Below are positions 3,042-7,343 of a DNA stretch of 8,566 bases, in pieces. The position numbers and the translations under genes are program-made. The DNA is taken from positions 1-8,566 of the forward strand of contig JAGATI010000057.1 of NCBI GenBank assembly GCA_017621295.1, in the 5' to 3' direction. The DNA is from Clostridia bacterium. Its GTDB lineage: Bacteria; Bacillota_A; Clostridia; TANB77; CAG-508. Within the stretch, counting starts at the first letter, position 1, and each line of letters begins with the position of its first letter. Under the pieces are notes generated by a model that saw nothing but the letters and a program-made list of their open reading frames with translations, was not told the DNA's origin and did not search any database.

Positions 3042-3056
3042 CCTCAGAAAGTGAGG
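3042..3056 (+). promoter_or_regulatory. Shine-Dalgarno-sequestering hairpin
   Basis: CCTCA (3042-3046), loop GAAAG, TGAGG (3052-3056). The right arm is the Shine-Dalgarno of the gene starting at 3065. The left arm lies mostly upstream of the predicted transcription start, so it would be present only in transcripts entering from upstream. Confidence 0.45.
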
Positions 3057-3064
3057 TGATTATA

Positions 3065-3289
3065 TTGGATAGTACTGAATACCATACAAAACTTTCCAAA
3101 GCAAAAAGTCAGACTGAACGAGAAAAGATTAATGACGAATTTATGAAACAACGTCGTTCTGTTCGTAAAAAACAAACATTAAGAAAATTCTGCACGGATA
3201 ATTTATTTGATATCATTAACGCTATCATTACCCTTTTAGCTTTAATAGTTGCAATATTAAGTTTATTATTGCAATTGCAAGGAAACTAG
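3065..3289 (+). CDS. Small C-terminally membrane-anchored protein, unknown function
   Basis: The only convincing plus-strand protein gene. From the TTG at 3065 it gives 74 aa: a charged, helical N-terminal half (MDSTEYHTKLSKAKSQTERE, then several R/K-rich turns) and one strong C-terminal membrane helix (about INAIITLLALIVAILSLLL) ending only four residues before the stop, the plan of a tail-anchored protein with its bulk in the cytoplasm. I prefer TTG 3065 to GTG 3056 because the strong ribosome site GAGGTGAT overlaps that GTG and is spaced correctly for the TTG. It has its own promoter and runs towards the minus-strand cassette, so it is an independent moron. Its last 62 bases overlap the 3' end of the 46-aa minus-strand gene. 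I do not recognise the family. Confidence 0.7.
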   Translation: MDSTEYHTKLSKAKSQTEREKINDEFMKQRRSVRKKQTLRKFCTDNLFDIINAIITLLALIVAILSLLLQLQGN

Positions 3290-3837: not shown

Positions 3838-4281
3838 TTATTTTATCCTCCTTATTTGGTTATAGTTTCTATATATTTCTTTTATTTCAGTTAATTTATC
3901 TATAGCATCATCTATATCTTGTTCTAATCTATCTTTATCTGATTTCATCATTGAATCTACCCAAAGATATACTTCTGTATCTTTTACTTCTAATGTTAAT
4001 ATTTTAAAAAGTGCATTGTGATAATTAAGTTCTATTGCTTTTTTATTCTCAATCTTTTTAAATTCTTCCTCTAGGAATTGTTCTTCTTTGCTTTTTTGTT
4101 TTACTAATTGTAATACTCTTGTTCTTGTAGGTATGTCTTCATTTTCTCTTGCTTCTGCTTTTACTTGTTCTACTATTTCCTTATTAGAAGATAATGTTTC
4201 AAATCGTTTAACTTGATTTTCATTAAATCCTAGTCTTTGTGCTGTTTCATATTTAGTTTCTGACTTTGGTTCACCGCTGAA
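3838..4281 (-). pseudogene. C-terminal remainder of the frameshifted early-phage gene
   Basis: Directly after the stop of the 4558..4271 frame, the +1 frame is open to TAA at 3840..3838. From GGT at 4275 it reads GEPKSETKYETAQRLGFNEN and QVKRFETLS, then a segment with QVKAEARENEDIPTRTRVLQL, then a charged helical tail ending NYNQIRRIK. This is the natural continuation of the first part: the SETKYETAQRLGFNENQVKR stretch looks like a helix-turn-helix, and ETLSSNKEIVEQVKAEAREN is a pattern I associate with the same phage family. No start codon lies near its beginning, so it would be lost unless the ribosome shifts frame. One extra base near CAGCGG (about 4279-4274) would explain the break. Confidence 0.75.
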
Positions 4282-4558
4282 CTAAAGTTGTTTTTATGTC
4301 AGTTCTCTTTCCTTGTGCCTTAGGTATTTGTTTTAATAAATCCCCAATTTTTACTTCTGCATCAAGCAAAGCTTCTGCCAACATTTGAGCTTCTTCTTTC
4401 TTCTGTTCTCTTACTTCTTGTGCAAGTTGTACTTTATCTATCGCTCTTATTTCAGCTCTTACAGATGTTAACTTTTCTCTACCTACTAAAACAAATTTTG
4501 CTAAATCTTCTATCTTATCTGGTAAATTTTGATTTTGAATTACAATTCCTTCTTGCAT
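4271..4558 (-). CDS. Early-phage-type coiled-coil/HTH protein, N-terminal part (frameshifted)
   Basis: Starting at ATG 4558 (AAAGGAAG site, proper spacing; the in-frame ATG at 4579 lies inside the upstream gene), it reads MQEGIVIQNQNLPDKIEDLA and on through KFVLVGREKLTSVRAEIRAI, a long charged helix, and IPKAQGKRTDIKTTLVQR before a TGA. The KIEDLAKFVL...GREKL..VRAEIRAID and KAQGKRTD blocks are familiar to me from clostridial phage and mobile-element proteins of about 230-250 aa, sometimes annotated as ParB-like or replication-associated. Here the frame ends at 95 aa, and the expected rest continues in the +1 frame to 3838, giving about 240 aa when joined. Such genes normally sit in early regions, so finding one between tail genes is odd. 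Its role is not known to me. Confidence 0.7.
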   Translation of the reverse strand: MQEGIVIQNQNLPDKIEDLAKFVLVGREKLTSVRAEIRAIDKVQLAQEVREQKKEEAQMLAEALLDAEVKIGDLLKQIPKAQGKRTDIKTTLVQR

Positions 4559-4560
4559 AC

Positions 4561-4752
4561 CTATTCTTCCTTTCTCCACTCTTTTTCTAAATACTTAATA
4601 GTTTCTTTATTTTTACAGTCATTATAAATTGATTTTATTATTTCAGCTTTCTTGTTTATATCTTTAATATTGATACATGCTCCATATGTTTTAGTTTCTA
4701 AATTTGTATAAAATCCTGTTGATTGATATTGTGACACAAAATCTTTTCTCAT
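4561..4752 (-). CDS. Hypothetical small protein (63 aa)
   Basis: The ATG overlaps the stop of the preceding gene as ATGA (4752-4749), with AAGGAGG ten bases upstream, so translation is coupled. The protein is soluble: an N-terminal part with aromatic residues and one Cys (MRKDFVSQYQSTGFYTNLET, then KTYGACINIKD) and a C-terminal helix rich in K and E (SIYNDCKNKETIKYLEKEWR). I recognise no family. Tight packing between the 74-aa gene and the early-type gene suggests they form one functional set. Confidence 0.7.
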   Translation of the reverse strand: MRKDFVSQYQSTGFYTNLETKTYGACINIKDINKKAEIIKSIYNDCKNKETIKYLEKEWRKEE

Positions 4753-4973
4753 TCTATTTCTGCCTCCTTGTTATCAAGTACCCCTTTAAATGTTCTAAAC
4801 TCATAATTATTTAGATTTATATTTTCTACCTCTTTTTGTGTTAACCATTCAGAAACCATAAATAAATATATGTCATTTACTTTTACTATTAATTGAATCT
4901 TGTTTTTATTTTCTGGTTTATAATATTTTGCCATATACCAATTTTCTTTTATTTGAATATAATCACTTTTCAT
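4749..4973 (-). CDS. Hypothetical small protein (74 aa)
   Basis: ATG at 4973 with GGAGG (4985-4981) seven bases upstream, inside the end of the 50-aa membrane gene. The sequence looks like a small beta-rich domain: MKSDYIQIKENWYMAKYYKP, then a strand pair around KIQLIVKVNDIYLFMVSEWL, then NYEFRTFKGVLDNKEAEIE. The alternation of hydrophobic strands suggests a compact fold, but I recognise no family. It ends with TGA, which shows that TGA is a stop in this genome. Part of the operon running from 5413 to 3417. Confidence 0.72.
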   Translation of the reverse strand: MKSDYIQIKENWYMAKYYKPENKNKIQLIVKVNDIYLFMVSEWLTQKEVENINLNNYEFRTFKGVLDNKEAEIE

Positions 4974-4975
4974 GC

Positions 4976-5128
4976 CTATACCTCCAACACTTTCATAAGT
5001 TTTTTATAAATATTAAATTTAAAAACTCTGTAACTTATTAGCTGTATAAACATAAATCCAATAAAACCTAAAGATGCATATATTCCTAATAATAAAATTG
5101 TAAATATTCCTGTTATTAAAATTTGCAT
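4976..5128 (-). CDS. Small membrane protein (50 aa)
   Basis: Too short for most gene finders but well supported: AAGGAGG at 5147-5141, ATG at 5128, 50 codons, TAG at 4978..4976, with the next gene starting two bases later. The N-terminal 32 residues are almost entirely hydrophobic (MQILITGIFTILLLGIYASL, then GFIGFMFIQLI), one long or two short membrane helices, followed by a basic tail (SYRVFKFNIYKKLMKVLEV). It is the first gene after the repressor and the plus-strand small RNA, the place taken by repB in pMV158-type plasmids. Its hydrophobic, basic-tailed design also resembles type I toxins. Function unknown; a toxin or a membrane exclusion peptide are possibilities only. Confidence 0.65.
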   Translation of the reverse strand: MQILITGIFTILLLGIYASLGFIGFMFIQLISYRVFKFNIYKKLMKVLEV

Positions 5129-5167
5129 AATAAAAAGAAACCTCCTTTAAAATTTTTGTATTTTAAG

Positions 5168-5196
5168 TTGAGATTTCTCTAATTCTATGATATAAT
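5168..5196 (+). promoter_or_regulatory. Consensus promoter for the antisense small RNA
   Basis: TTGAGA at 5168-5173, exactly 17 bases, then perfect TATAAT at 5191-5196 on the plus strand. No long protein frame follows; the transcript runs into a hairpin with a U tract about 75 bases later. Predicted start near 5203. Confidence 0.75.
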
Positions 5197-5202
5197 ATTT
5201 CA

Positions 5203-5287
5203 TAGATAGAGTTAATCTCTAGACGATAGGTATAGTTGTATGTCACCGACCAAAGTTTCTTACAACTGTGCCTATATTTTATTTTTC
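5203..5287 (+). ncRNA. Counter-transcribed (antisense) small RNA, ctRNA-like
   Basis: About 85 nt between a consensus promoter and an intrinsic terminator. The 5' part can form a short stem (TAGAG 5207-5211 with CTCTA 5217-5221). The main hairpin pairs 5226-5240 with 5261-5275: 15 bp including two G-U pairs, and a 20-nt loop containing GTCACCGACC. The same pairs are A-C mismatches on the minus strand, which argues that the plus-strand RNA is the selected form. The RNA is complementary to the segment between the repressor gene and the 50-aa membrane gene, so it could block translation or cause early termination of the operon mRNA, as RNAII does between copG and repB in pMV158. Target and mechanism are inferred. 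Confidence 0.6.
5226..5286 (+). terminator. Intrinsic terminator of the antisense RNA
   Basis: A 15-bp stem (5226-5240 / 5261-5275) followed by ATTTTATTTTT. On the minus strand no T tract follows the stem, so it works on the plus strand only. The U tract overlaps the stop codon of the repressor gene coming from the other side. Confidence 0.65.
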
Positions 5288-5413
5288 TAAGTCTCTTTTG
5301 ATAAGTTCTATAACATATTCATTAAAAGACTTGTTTTCCTCTAATAATTTATACTTAACTTGTTTTAGTAACTCATCATCAATCCTTACTGTTGTCTGTT
5401 TAATTTTTCTCAC
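5279..5413 (-). CDS. Ribbon-helix-helix repressor (CopG/Arc type, 44 aa)
   Basis: The short frame reads MRKIKQTTVRIDDELLKQVK, then YKLLEENKSFNEYVIELIKRDLEK. It fits the ribbon-helix-helix fold: N-terminal strand (KQTTVRID) that enters the major groove as a dimer, helix A (DELLKQVKYKLLEEN), the turn NKS, and helix B (FNEYVIELIKRDLEK). At 44 aa it is about the size of pMV158 CopG (45 aa). The GTG at 5413 is the only standard start but sits inside the ribosome site GAGAGGTGAG; an ATT at 5404, 8 bases downstream of GAGG, would give the classic start of KQTTVRIDDEL. Three TGACGTCA-like boxes around its promoter suggest autorepression. It leads an operon and is followed at once by the antisense RNA locus. 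Confidence 0.8.
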   Translation of the reverse strand: MRKIKQTTVRIDDELLKQVKYKLLEENKSFNEYVIELIKRDLEK

Positions 5414-5424
5414 CTCTCTTTCAT

Positions 5425-5460
5425 TGACGTCATAATATCATATGTGACGTCGTGATGTCA
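5425..5460 (-). promoter_or_regulatory. Three-box operator of the RHH repressor
   Basis: Near-identical palindromic octamers on the plus strand: TGACGTCA (5425-5432), TGACGTCG (5445-5452), TGATGTCA (5453-5460). Two are tandem and cover the -35 region; the third starts at the last base of the -10 box and covers the transcription start, 20 bp (two helical turns) from the next box. This arrangement suits cooperative binding of RHH dimers that shut the promoter. Confidence 0.65.
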
Positions 5461-5461
5461 A
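5432..5461 (-). promoter_or_regulatory. Promoter of the repressor-led operon
   Basis: Minus-strand TTGACA (5461-5456), 18-base spacer, TATTAT (5437-5432) with an extended -10 TGA just before it. Predicted start near 5425, leaving a leader of about 12-20 bases. Confidence 0.75.
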
Positions 5462-5514: not shown

Positions 5515-5817
5515 TTATATAAGTGTTTCTATCATTTCTTTTAATTTATCTCTATCCCATAAAACTACATCATTCTTTTCAGCTTGTTTTTTAGCACTAT
5601 TAGTGAAGTAGTTGTTTGTTACTACAATTGCAACATGACAATTATAAAAAGATTTGCCACTATAAGCTTCTTGAACTGCTTTATTCCCAACAGGTTGAGA
5701 ATAATTTTTACATTGGATTGCATATTTTATATCATCTTTTATAGCTATTACATCGATTCCATAATCACCAGAACTTTTTGTAACAATACTATTATTGTAT
5801 CCTAAACAAGTTAATAA
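5515..5817 (-). pseudogene. Detached Mrr-like (PD-(D/E)xK) nuclease domain, cut off by an in-frame TAA
   Basis: Directly after the TAA at 5820..5818 the same frame stays open for 100 codons to TAA at 5517..5515. It reads LLTCLGYNNSIVTKSSGDYG, then IDVIAIKDDIKYAIQCKNYS, later CHVAIVVTNNYFTNSAKKQA and VVLWDRDKLKEMI. This is a restriction endonuclease-like (Mrr_cat) fold: the catalytic Asp in GIDV, the QCK motif, the VVTNNYFTNSAKKQA block and the LWDRDKL strand are all present and intact; the helix bearing the family Glu (FESFVA) lies just before the stop. No in-frame ATG, GTG or TTG exists early in the fragment, so it cannot be made as a whole on its own. A single G-to-T change (GAA to TAA) would explain the break. 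Confidence 0.8.
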
Positions 5818-6465
5818 TTAAGCAACAAAACTTTCAAATTCAAAGCCATCAAGTTCATCAATATATTCTAATTTACAAGCATCAATAAACTCTATCTTTT
5901 CTCTTAATGGATTTATTCTTTCTTCTAATACATTTATTTCTTCTTGTAATTCTATATTTTTGTTTTTTAGTTTCTTATTTTCTCTTTTTAATTCATCAAA
6001 TGTCTTTTTTTCTTCTTTTATTGTTTTTAAAATACTCTCTTCTTGTTTAGTCATTTTTTCTAGTTTATGTAATGTATTTTCCAATTCTATAATCTGCTTT
6101 TTTAATTCTTTTTCTTTTAATATTAATTGATTAATCTCTTGTTTGTATTGATTGATTTCAGATATATTATCTTTATTCAAAGATATATTTTCTAATATCT
6201 CACCTTTATAATTTTCTAAAGATGCAATTTGCTTTAATAATGTTGCTTTTATATTGTTAAGTTTTCTTATTCTTTTTATAATAGGTTTTGACAATAGCTT
6301 AAATATAAGTTCCCTACTATATAAAAAGCAAATAGAAGATGCTATTATAAAGAATAAAAAGAGTCCCATATCATTTCTTATATAAAGAATACTCATCAAT
6401 ACACATAACAATCCAATCAGAAGTACCATACTTTCTCTTTCATTTGTTCTGTTTTTTGATTTCAT
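5818..6465 (-). CDS. Two-TM coiled-coil protein, N-terminal part of a membrane-anchored Mrr-type nuclease
   Basis: Starts at ATG 6465 after GGAGGACAA, 17 bases downstream of the previous stop, so both genes share a transcript. It has two membrane helices (about residues 13-29 and 33-53, with short RND between), a basic stop-transfer stretch (KPIIKRIRKL), then about 130 residues of coiled coil rich in K, E and L. The last residues DELDGFEFESFVA are the start of an Mrr-like domain whose remainder continues after the TAA. The unbroken protein would be 316 aa: membrane anchor, cytoplasmic coil, nuclease. Membrane-anchored coiled-coil nucleases are a known plan among phage-defence effectors, so a role in excluding other phages is plausible. 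As it stands only the anchor and coil are made. Confidence 0.75.
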   Translation of the reverse strand: MKSKNRTNERESMVLLIGLLCVLMSILYIRNDMGLFLFFIIASSICFLYSRELIFKLLSKPIIKRIRKLNNIKATLLKQIASLENYKGEILENISLNKDNISEINQYKQEINQLILKEKELKKQIIELENTLHKLEKMTKQEESILKTIKEEKKTFDELKRENKKLKNKNIELQEEINVLEERINPLREKIEFIDACKLEYIDELDGFEFESFVA

Positions 6466-6482: not shown

Positions 6483-7343
6483 TTAATCAAATTCTGCCAT
6501 ATCTATAATTAGTTTATCTATTTCATCTCGTTTGGTTGCTATTTCAACTACCTTTCCAGTATATTTATCTGAAGTTTCTTTTATTTTCTTGTCTAATTCA
6601 CTATTTGCTAATTCATTACTTATTTCTTTTTGTCTTGTTTCTAGCTCTTGTTTCTTTGACTTTAAATCTTCTTCCTCTTCAGGCGACAATTGTCCTCCTA
6701 TTAAGTTTGCTTTATAAAGTACAATTTTACTAGCATTCTCATTATATTCTCTTTGTAAACTTGTTTTTTTATTATATAATTCTATATGTTTTTCACTTAA
6801 CTCACCCGCTTCTTTTTGCAAACTTGTAAGTTCTTCTTGCAAAGTTGCTCTTTTGTCTGCCATCTTTTTTAATTCTTCTTGTTTTTCTTTACTTTCTTTT
6901 GATAAGTTATTAAGACTAGTTTCTGTTTTACTCAATTGCTTTTGCAAGTTTTCTATTTGCTCTGTATCTAGCTTTTCTACTACTTTTTCTACTGTTTTCT
7001 CTACTGTAACTGTATTTGTTTTTTGGGTTGTATCTGGTATCTTTGTATTTGTTTTTTCTTCATTTTTAACTACAATTTGTTCATTTTTTGTTTCATTTTC
7101 TTTATTTCTATTATCGTTAACCTGTTTTTGTAATTCTTCAAGCATAGTTTTAGTGTTAGCCAATTCATTTTTTAAGTCGTTTATCTCTTTACTATTATCA
7201 ACTTGTTTCTCTTCAATATAATTATCTACTTTAGTAACTTCTGTTGTTTTTGTATTTTTAGTTGCTTGTACCACACAAAAACTCGATACTCCTACTACAG
7301 TAACAGCTGATGCTCCAATAAGAATATATTTGACTAATTTCAT
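6483..7343 (-). CDS. Membrane-anchored exported coiled-coil protein
   Basis: 286 aa from ATG 7343 with AAGGAGA at correct spacing. MKLVKYILIGASAVTVVGVS and SFCVVQATK form an N-terminal signal anchor; no proper lipobox precedes the Cys, so it is not called a lipoprotein. The rest is hydrophilic: a coiled coil near 50-80, a T/K/N-rich linker with repeated VEKxVEK (about 85-125), then a long coiled coil (about 127-250) and a last charged helix ending DMAEFD. Most of the protein should lie outside the membrane. It is the first gene after the tail chaperones, has its own promoter, and is cotranscribed with the membrane nuclease gene. No enzymatic motif is seen. It may sense, bridge or block something at the cell surface; that is inference. 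Confidence 0.7.
   Translation of the reverse strand: MKLVKYILIGASAVTVVGVSSFCVVQATKNTKTTEVTKVDNYIEEKQVDNSKEINDLKNELANTKTMLEELQKQVNDNRNKENETKNEQIVVKNEEKTNTKIPDTTQKTNTVTVEKTVEKVVEKLDTEQIENLQKQLSKTETSLNNLSKESKEKQEELKKMADKRATLQEELTSLQKEAGELSEKHIELYNKKTSLQREYNENASKIVLYKANLIGGQLSPEEEEDLKSKKQELETRQKEISNELANSELDKKIKETSDKYTGKVVEIATKRDEIDKLIIDMAEFD

Follow-up and report, generated by a model that had tools for sequence, protein, structure and literature searches.

The stretch of DNA analysed here (8,566 nt; hereafter, the window) corresponds to the late region of a phage, read on the minus strand, in which a tape-measure gene (189–2900; phrog_1535) is preceded upstream by accessory genes, including one for an RHH repressor. 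The RHH gene (5279–5413, minus strand; 44 aa) was recognised from the list of open reading frames, PHROG repressor families, a profile search of the PDB and a structure model. When compared with solved structures, a profile built from 20 relatives matched ParG (E 8e-7), 56B (E 9e-6), ORF56 (E 1e-3) and HP0222 (E 0.016), and Arc only at E 0.8, all of which we take to be RHH proteins. The AlphaFold model (pLDDT 90.7) had an extended N-terminus followed by helices at residues 13–26 and 30–43, and Foldseek placed Arc and CopG chains among its best folds (TM 0.63–0.79), but with E values above 1. The open reading frame and the profile matches to ParG, 56B and ORF56 bear out the 44-aa RHH protein named in an initial annotation of this DNA.

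A promoter pattern match, TTGACA-18-TATTAT (5432–5461, minus strand), marks the putative promoter of the RHH operon and is overlapped by two 16-nt direct repeats (5425–5460). These were identified by repeat and motif analysis, are operator-like, and would be bound by the repressor. The copies (5425–5440 and 5445–5460; spacing 20) are 81% identical, consistent with the repeated operator proposed earlier. The motif TGACRTCA matched three times, at two sites of which one was scored on each strand; 1 of 200 shuffles reached this number.

On the opposite strand, a second predicted promoter, TTGAGA-17-TATAAT with TG (5168–5196; 11/12), is kept in relatives. From it would start an antisense RNA of ~80 nt (5203–5286, plus strand), delimited by folding and, at its start, by the promoter, and consisting of a 5' hairpin (5207–5221), a terminator hairpin (5226–5275) and a U-tract (5276–5286) encoded opposite the last codons and the stop of the RHH gene. 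The terminator hairpin has 15-bp arms (5226–5240 and 5261–5275), and folding and a motif scan place CCAA in its loop (5241–5260), which is UUGG in the mRNA and matches YUNR, a motif described for recognition loops in the accessible part of a paper on pMV158 (PMC4485353). The hairpin was more stable on the plus strand (z −4.83) than on the minus strand (z −2.07) because its wobbles are G-U in the plus-strand RNA, and its polarity therefore fits the antisense direction. It was absent from the output of our terminator scan, the loop limit of which (8) is shorter than this loop. While the antisense and RHH promoters were the two best of 34 promoter matches in the window, this total was not above that of shuffled sequences (35.6); a promoter alone is therefore no proof, and the case rests on relatives. 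All elements that the initial annotation had placed in 5168–5461 were found there, including the promoter, 15-bp stem and U tract (5168–5286) of the candidate small RNA.

The first gene under the presumed control of this unit encodes a 50-aa membrane-like peptide (4976–5128, minus strand) that has 30 database relatives and is homologous to the first gene of another locus, L001. It is followed on the same strand by an open reading frame of 74 aa with no clear family (4749–4973), a 63-aa gene with relatives in the modules of L001, L020 and L114 (4561–4752), and, in what we call the effector position, the split remnant of an unnamed family (4081–4579), recovered as two tblastn pieces of a protein from L063. 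Between 4286 and 4263 the reading frame changes, which splits the gene relative to its intact L063 relative, and the window copy looks partly decayed. Members of this family follow the module in L063 (11919–12644) and L032 (2–301); the family had no Pfam or PHROG match and has 851 homologues, with a Pfam domain in none of the 120 matches listed. Elsewhere in the window, a piece of an Mrr-type nuclease (5543–5805, minus strand; Mrr_cat) is in frame with the open reading frame at 5818–6465, with a stop codon between them, and this gene (5543–6465) looks interrupted as well. The gene at 6483–7343 (minus strand) encodes 286 aa with a hydrophobic N-terminus, a long coiled-coil-like stretch and weak family matches only, and a 77-aa open reading frame (3056–3289, plus strand), hydrophobic at its C-terminus and of no clear family, opposes the operon.

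Recurrence of the module and the genes it precedes

A search with the 50-aa peptide led to the first relative, L001. There the promoter core recurs together with an RHH gene and a hairpin whose sequence differs, and a Bro-N/ORF6C antirepressor lies further downstream. The genes flanking its module we read as portal and head protease. Of 6 viral-contig stretches picked up by a scan with the core pattern, 4 were kept as members and 2 dropped; of 32 from genome contigs, which include Clostridium tyrobutyricum and Anaeromonas gelatinilytica, 7 were kept and 25 dropped. A looser pattern yielded 25 members among 33 stretches of viral contigs (3 already known; 8 dropped, including L058, an unclear case). 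Dropped stretches were judged to be non-members by eye from their context, and membership is partly a matter of such inspection. By these pattern scans, the order of RHH gene, antisense RNA and next gene first noticed in the window recurs at 33 further loci in other genomes, giving 34 loci and 27 distinct leaders with the window included. The exact core pattern occurred in 1 of 398 phylum-sample genomes, that one being the centre genome.

Upon inspection, an RHH gene lay upstream of the antisense RNA in the window and in 25 of 26 loci. The antisense unit of L029 is accompanied by another small DNA-binding-like open reading frame and by no recognised RHH gene, and at L040, where no RHH gene was found beside the antisense unit, the next gene encodes an HTH_3 protein. 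In the alignment of 12 loci found without a −35 requirement (A2), TTG stood 17 nt before TATAAT in 11 (TTC in L003), a spacing held while the surrounding leader shifts. The looser pattern itself required TTG at 17 nt, and its loci are uninformative on promoter conservation; among seven loci met later, 6 had TTG at this position and Javan570 did not. The terminator hairpins have unrelated sequences and one common form. They were more stable on the antisense-RNA strand in 31/34 loci, the other three sharing one sequence, and contained UUGG or CCAA in 31/34 (missing in L003, L054 and L060). A combined promoter-plus-terminator scan was positive for all 34 members, 3/170 shuffles and 21/768 random windows; it misses P22 sar and is not a general detector.

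Phage megablast with the whole window returned zero matches, a distant search of phages and plasmids matched the Mrr-like gene only, and L002, reached via the tape-measure protein, was uninformative. Rfam 15 had no match in the window up to E 5 and none at gathering scores at the module of 17 loci. The phage contig of L051 carries an Rfam 6A RNA (RF02925; 1505–1557) upstream of its RHH gene.

Antirepressor-type domains were encoded downstream in 16 of 20 Pfam-scanned loci, as Bro-N with or without ANT, Rha, ORF6N/ORF6C, P22_AR_N or AntA; these 16 include L027, with ORF6N only and below cut-off, and L034, with a partial gene. The Pfam scan found no such domain downstream in the window, L040, L050 and L063. 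Each of the named phages phiJH1301-1, Javan362 and Javan570 has an annotated antirepressor, and none is annotated within the stretch viewed of Javan527 and Javan52. The first downstream gene varies between loci, several having the antirepressor itself in first place. This variation bears on the proposal, raised in the initial annotation, of a toxin-type control system, in which the 50-aa membrane peptide would be a type I toxin silenced by the antisense RNA. The peptide is small and hydrophobic, lies right behind the antisense RNA and has a conserved homologue in L001, but a first gene that changes from locus to locus and is sometimes an antirepressor, together with the lack of any toxin family match, makes this explanation very unlikely.

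We also surveyed 64 loci starting from antirepressor genes, namely 4 ANT loci from three member genomes and two sets of 30 Bro-N loci, drawn from 299 phylum genomes and 195 family genomes. An RHH open reading frame was present in 6/64, all with the antisense unit (L074, L076 and L109, already known, and L111, L114 and L115, new). A scan ignoring RHH was positive at 7/64, adding L112 as well as L133, a weak case in which the loop motif is missing. The gain was four new loci, all within one bacterial family, and the phylum-wide Bro-N sample had the unit at 0/30 loci. The antisense unit guards a minority of Bro-N genes. Given that loci reached via antirepressor genes carry the unit, the design is no product of the search pattern. 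Clostridioides phage LIBA6276, a candidate that we rejected, encodes an antirepressor, yet no such unit is seen in the short gap preceding it.

Competing helices in the leader

In the window, folding and cross-pairing delimited three elements in the leader of the operon mRNA (minus strand): A (5203–5222), complementary to the 5' end of the antisense RNA; B (5170–5187), which could pair with A or, through 5170–5180, with the SD arm; and the SD arm itself (5134–5146, with AGGAGG at 5141–5146), followed by a U-rich stretch and the start codon. Among 19 leaders that could be scored, 13 had a spacer between SD and ATG with a T content of 60% or more, compared to 11.3% of 309 other genes. The start of the antisense RNA is the conserved core, and its 5' end falls at the A/B boundary, such that its target contains A and excludes B and SD. 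Across the 34 loci, the predicted 5' end lies 48–72 nt upstream of the start codon (median 58), and the SD could therefore not be covered as it is by sar.

In silico, each leader can form two competing helices, A:B, which leaves the SD free, and B:SD, which closes it. The B and SD-arm partners are AGAAAUCUC/GAGGUUUCU in the window, AGAAUCUC/GAGGUUCU in L001, AGGUAUCUC/GAGGUAUCU in L013 and ACACUUCUUUU/AAAAGGAGUGU in L042. Since MAFFT misaligned the variable hairpins, after which RNAalifold yielded the core palindrome only, pairing was tested by cross-pairing in place of a covariance model. Permuted partners matched the true B:SD and A:B pairings in 0 of 20,000 permutations each, values inflated by relatedness, and the control pairing A:SD was matched in 18,223 of 20,000. 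With one leader drawn per cluster (8 clusters, 20 draws, 4000 permutations), the median number of permutations reaching the observed value was 9.5 for B:SD (range 0–69), 0 for A:B (range 0–2) and 2651 for A:SD. With A removed, as antisense binding would do, opening the SD cost 9.2 kcal/mol on average instead of 3.6 kcal/mol and became harder in 26/27 leaders, L029 being the sole unresponsive one; with B shuffled, the cost was 3.4 kcal/mol. The A..B hairpin was the more stable alternative in 27/27 leaders. The complete window leader adopted the closed B:SD fold at equilibrium, and an open state would therefore need A:B to form first, during transcription.

These features suggest that the module is probably a double-control unit like P22 immI, in a phage of Gram-positive (Bacillota) bacteria, acting by attenuation of the pT181 type. 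The RHH protein would repress its own operon promoter, and the ~80-nt antisense RNA, made from inside the operon leader, would silence messages that leak through. In a free message, A would pair with B and leave the SD of the next gene open; an antisense RNA bound to the hairpin target and A would free B to pair with the SD. As in pT181, the B:SD hairpin may also end transcription if a U-run comes after it, although the 3' arm has no U-run behind it in L029, L034, L051 and others. In Javan527 (L139) and Javan52 (L142), B is predicted to form a plain terminator well upstream of the SD, and these leaders would be a purely transcriptional version of the switch. We infer a pT181-like mode of antisense attenuation for the design as a whole. 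The antirepressor of the guarded operon in most relatives examined would inactivate the lysogeny repressor, and in the window another effector, now broken, would occupy its position.

A simpler explanation is direct inhibition in the manner of sar, in which pairing followed by RNase III cleavage, or transcription interference, would suffice and the leader hairpins would be incidental. The antisense RNA is wholly complementary to the leader, the promoters converge, and P22 sar acts via pairing according to the accessible part of a review (PMC12197685). Nevertheless, in both competing helices the arms pair far better with those of their own leader than with those of other leaders, the antisense 5' end coincides with the A/B boundary, and plain terminators replace B in the two Javan phages, making inhibition without a switch unlikely.

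Hairpin diversity and possible specificity

The antisense hairpin and the switch differ in their conservation. Identity in the switch (A-core-B-SD) compared to that in the hairpin was 98% vs 50% for the window and L024, 100% vs 62% for L042 and L062, and 100% vs 66% for L043 and L059, with a shuffled-hairpin baseline of 49–51%. That hairpins vary while the switch is kept suggests a specificity code. We tentatively propose that these modules may form a widespread, uncatalogued family of RNA switches in Gram-positive phages, in which the variable antisense hairpin would be an exchangeable immunity code. If so, silencing by the RNA of a resident prophage would be confined to operons with a matching hairpin, whether incoming or co-resident, and would amount to an RNA-based compatibility system comparable to plasmid incompatibility or the heteroimmunity of P1 and P7.

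P22 and P1 provide the classical examples of antirepressors under antisense control. We found neither a description of the present design nor antisense control of antirepressors in Gram-positive phages in searches of an open-access library, and subscription papers, outside this search, may hold such a description. In the accessible part of a 2025 review of phage small RNAs (PMC12197685), the terms 'Gram-positive', 'Streptococcus' and 'Clostridi' are absent. The design seems uncatalogued. If real, it would join a P22-style immunity architecture to pT181-style attenuation and guard several unrelated antirepressor classes (Bro-N with KilAC, Rha, ORF6N/C and AntA). The named phages would make it testable, the loci would offer natural sets of antisense/attenuator pairs, and the unnamed protein family with 851 homologues would become a candidate effector.

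Comparison with known systems

The initial annotation likened the arrangement to CopG-RNAII of pMV158-family plasmids and considered a copy-control circuit captured by a phage, in which the RNA would simply block translation of the next gene. The likeness holds for gene order: an RHH gene, a countertranscript and the next gene succeed one another in pMV158, according to the accessible part of PMC4485353, as they do here and at the 33 other loci, and the RHH fold is common with CopG. It does not extend to the RNA, which is 48 nt long in pMV158 (PMC4485353, same part) and ~80 nt with two hairpins here, nor to the next gene, which is repB with atypical translation signals in the plasmid (PMC4485353) and here has a canonical SD and is no rep gene. 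Capture of a plasmid circuit is also opposed by antirepressor-type genes in 16/20 loci, by an RNA that stops 48–72 nt before the start codon, and by the presence of an SD with a covarying switch. No plasmid replication-initiator domain was found among the downstream proteins scanned with Pfam, and the plasmid searches returned no homologue and nothing relevant; we consider a plasmid origin highly improbable. A weak 41-nt match to two Fusobacterium plasmids was rejected, as in the single record inspected it falls within a RepB coding gene.

We know of no RHH partner of the c4 RNA of P1 and P7. As far as the accessible part of PMC12197685 describes it, c4 shares with the present design antisense control of an antirepressor and, possibly, heteroimmunity, and differs in pairing around the ribosome binding site. 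The RNAI/repC system of pT181 shares the predicted mechanism, with antisense binding that frees a terminator arm and mutually exclusive leader helices with the SD in the 3' arm; its terminator holds AGGAG in the 3' half (PMC5435934, accessible part). It differs in controlling a plasmid replication gene and, in that part of PMC5435934, no RHH partner is mentioned, whereas the present set has no Rfam match and some of its leaders lack a U-run.

With P22 immI, the module shares an RHH repressor gene, an antisense RNA on the opposite strand and then, in most relatives examined, an antirepressor. In P22, mnt, arc and the antisense RNA sar control ant within a moron of the late operon, as described in the accessible part of PMC2629481. 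The 70-nt sar abuts the start codon of ant, at a distance of 0 compared to 48–72 nt here, and its promoter lies inside ant, whereas the RNA described here lies upstream of the SD. No counterpart of Mnt was seen. Given that the window has no ant and the RNA does not lie over the SD, we do not file the module as a strict immI member. In its working, the design nevertheless appears most like P22 immI, with a pT181-like action.
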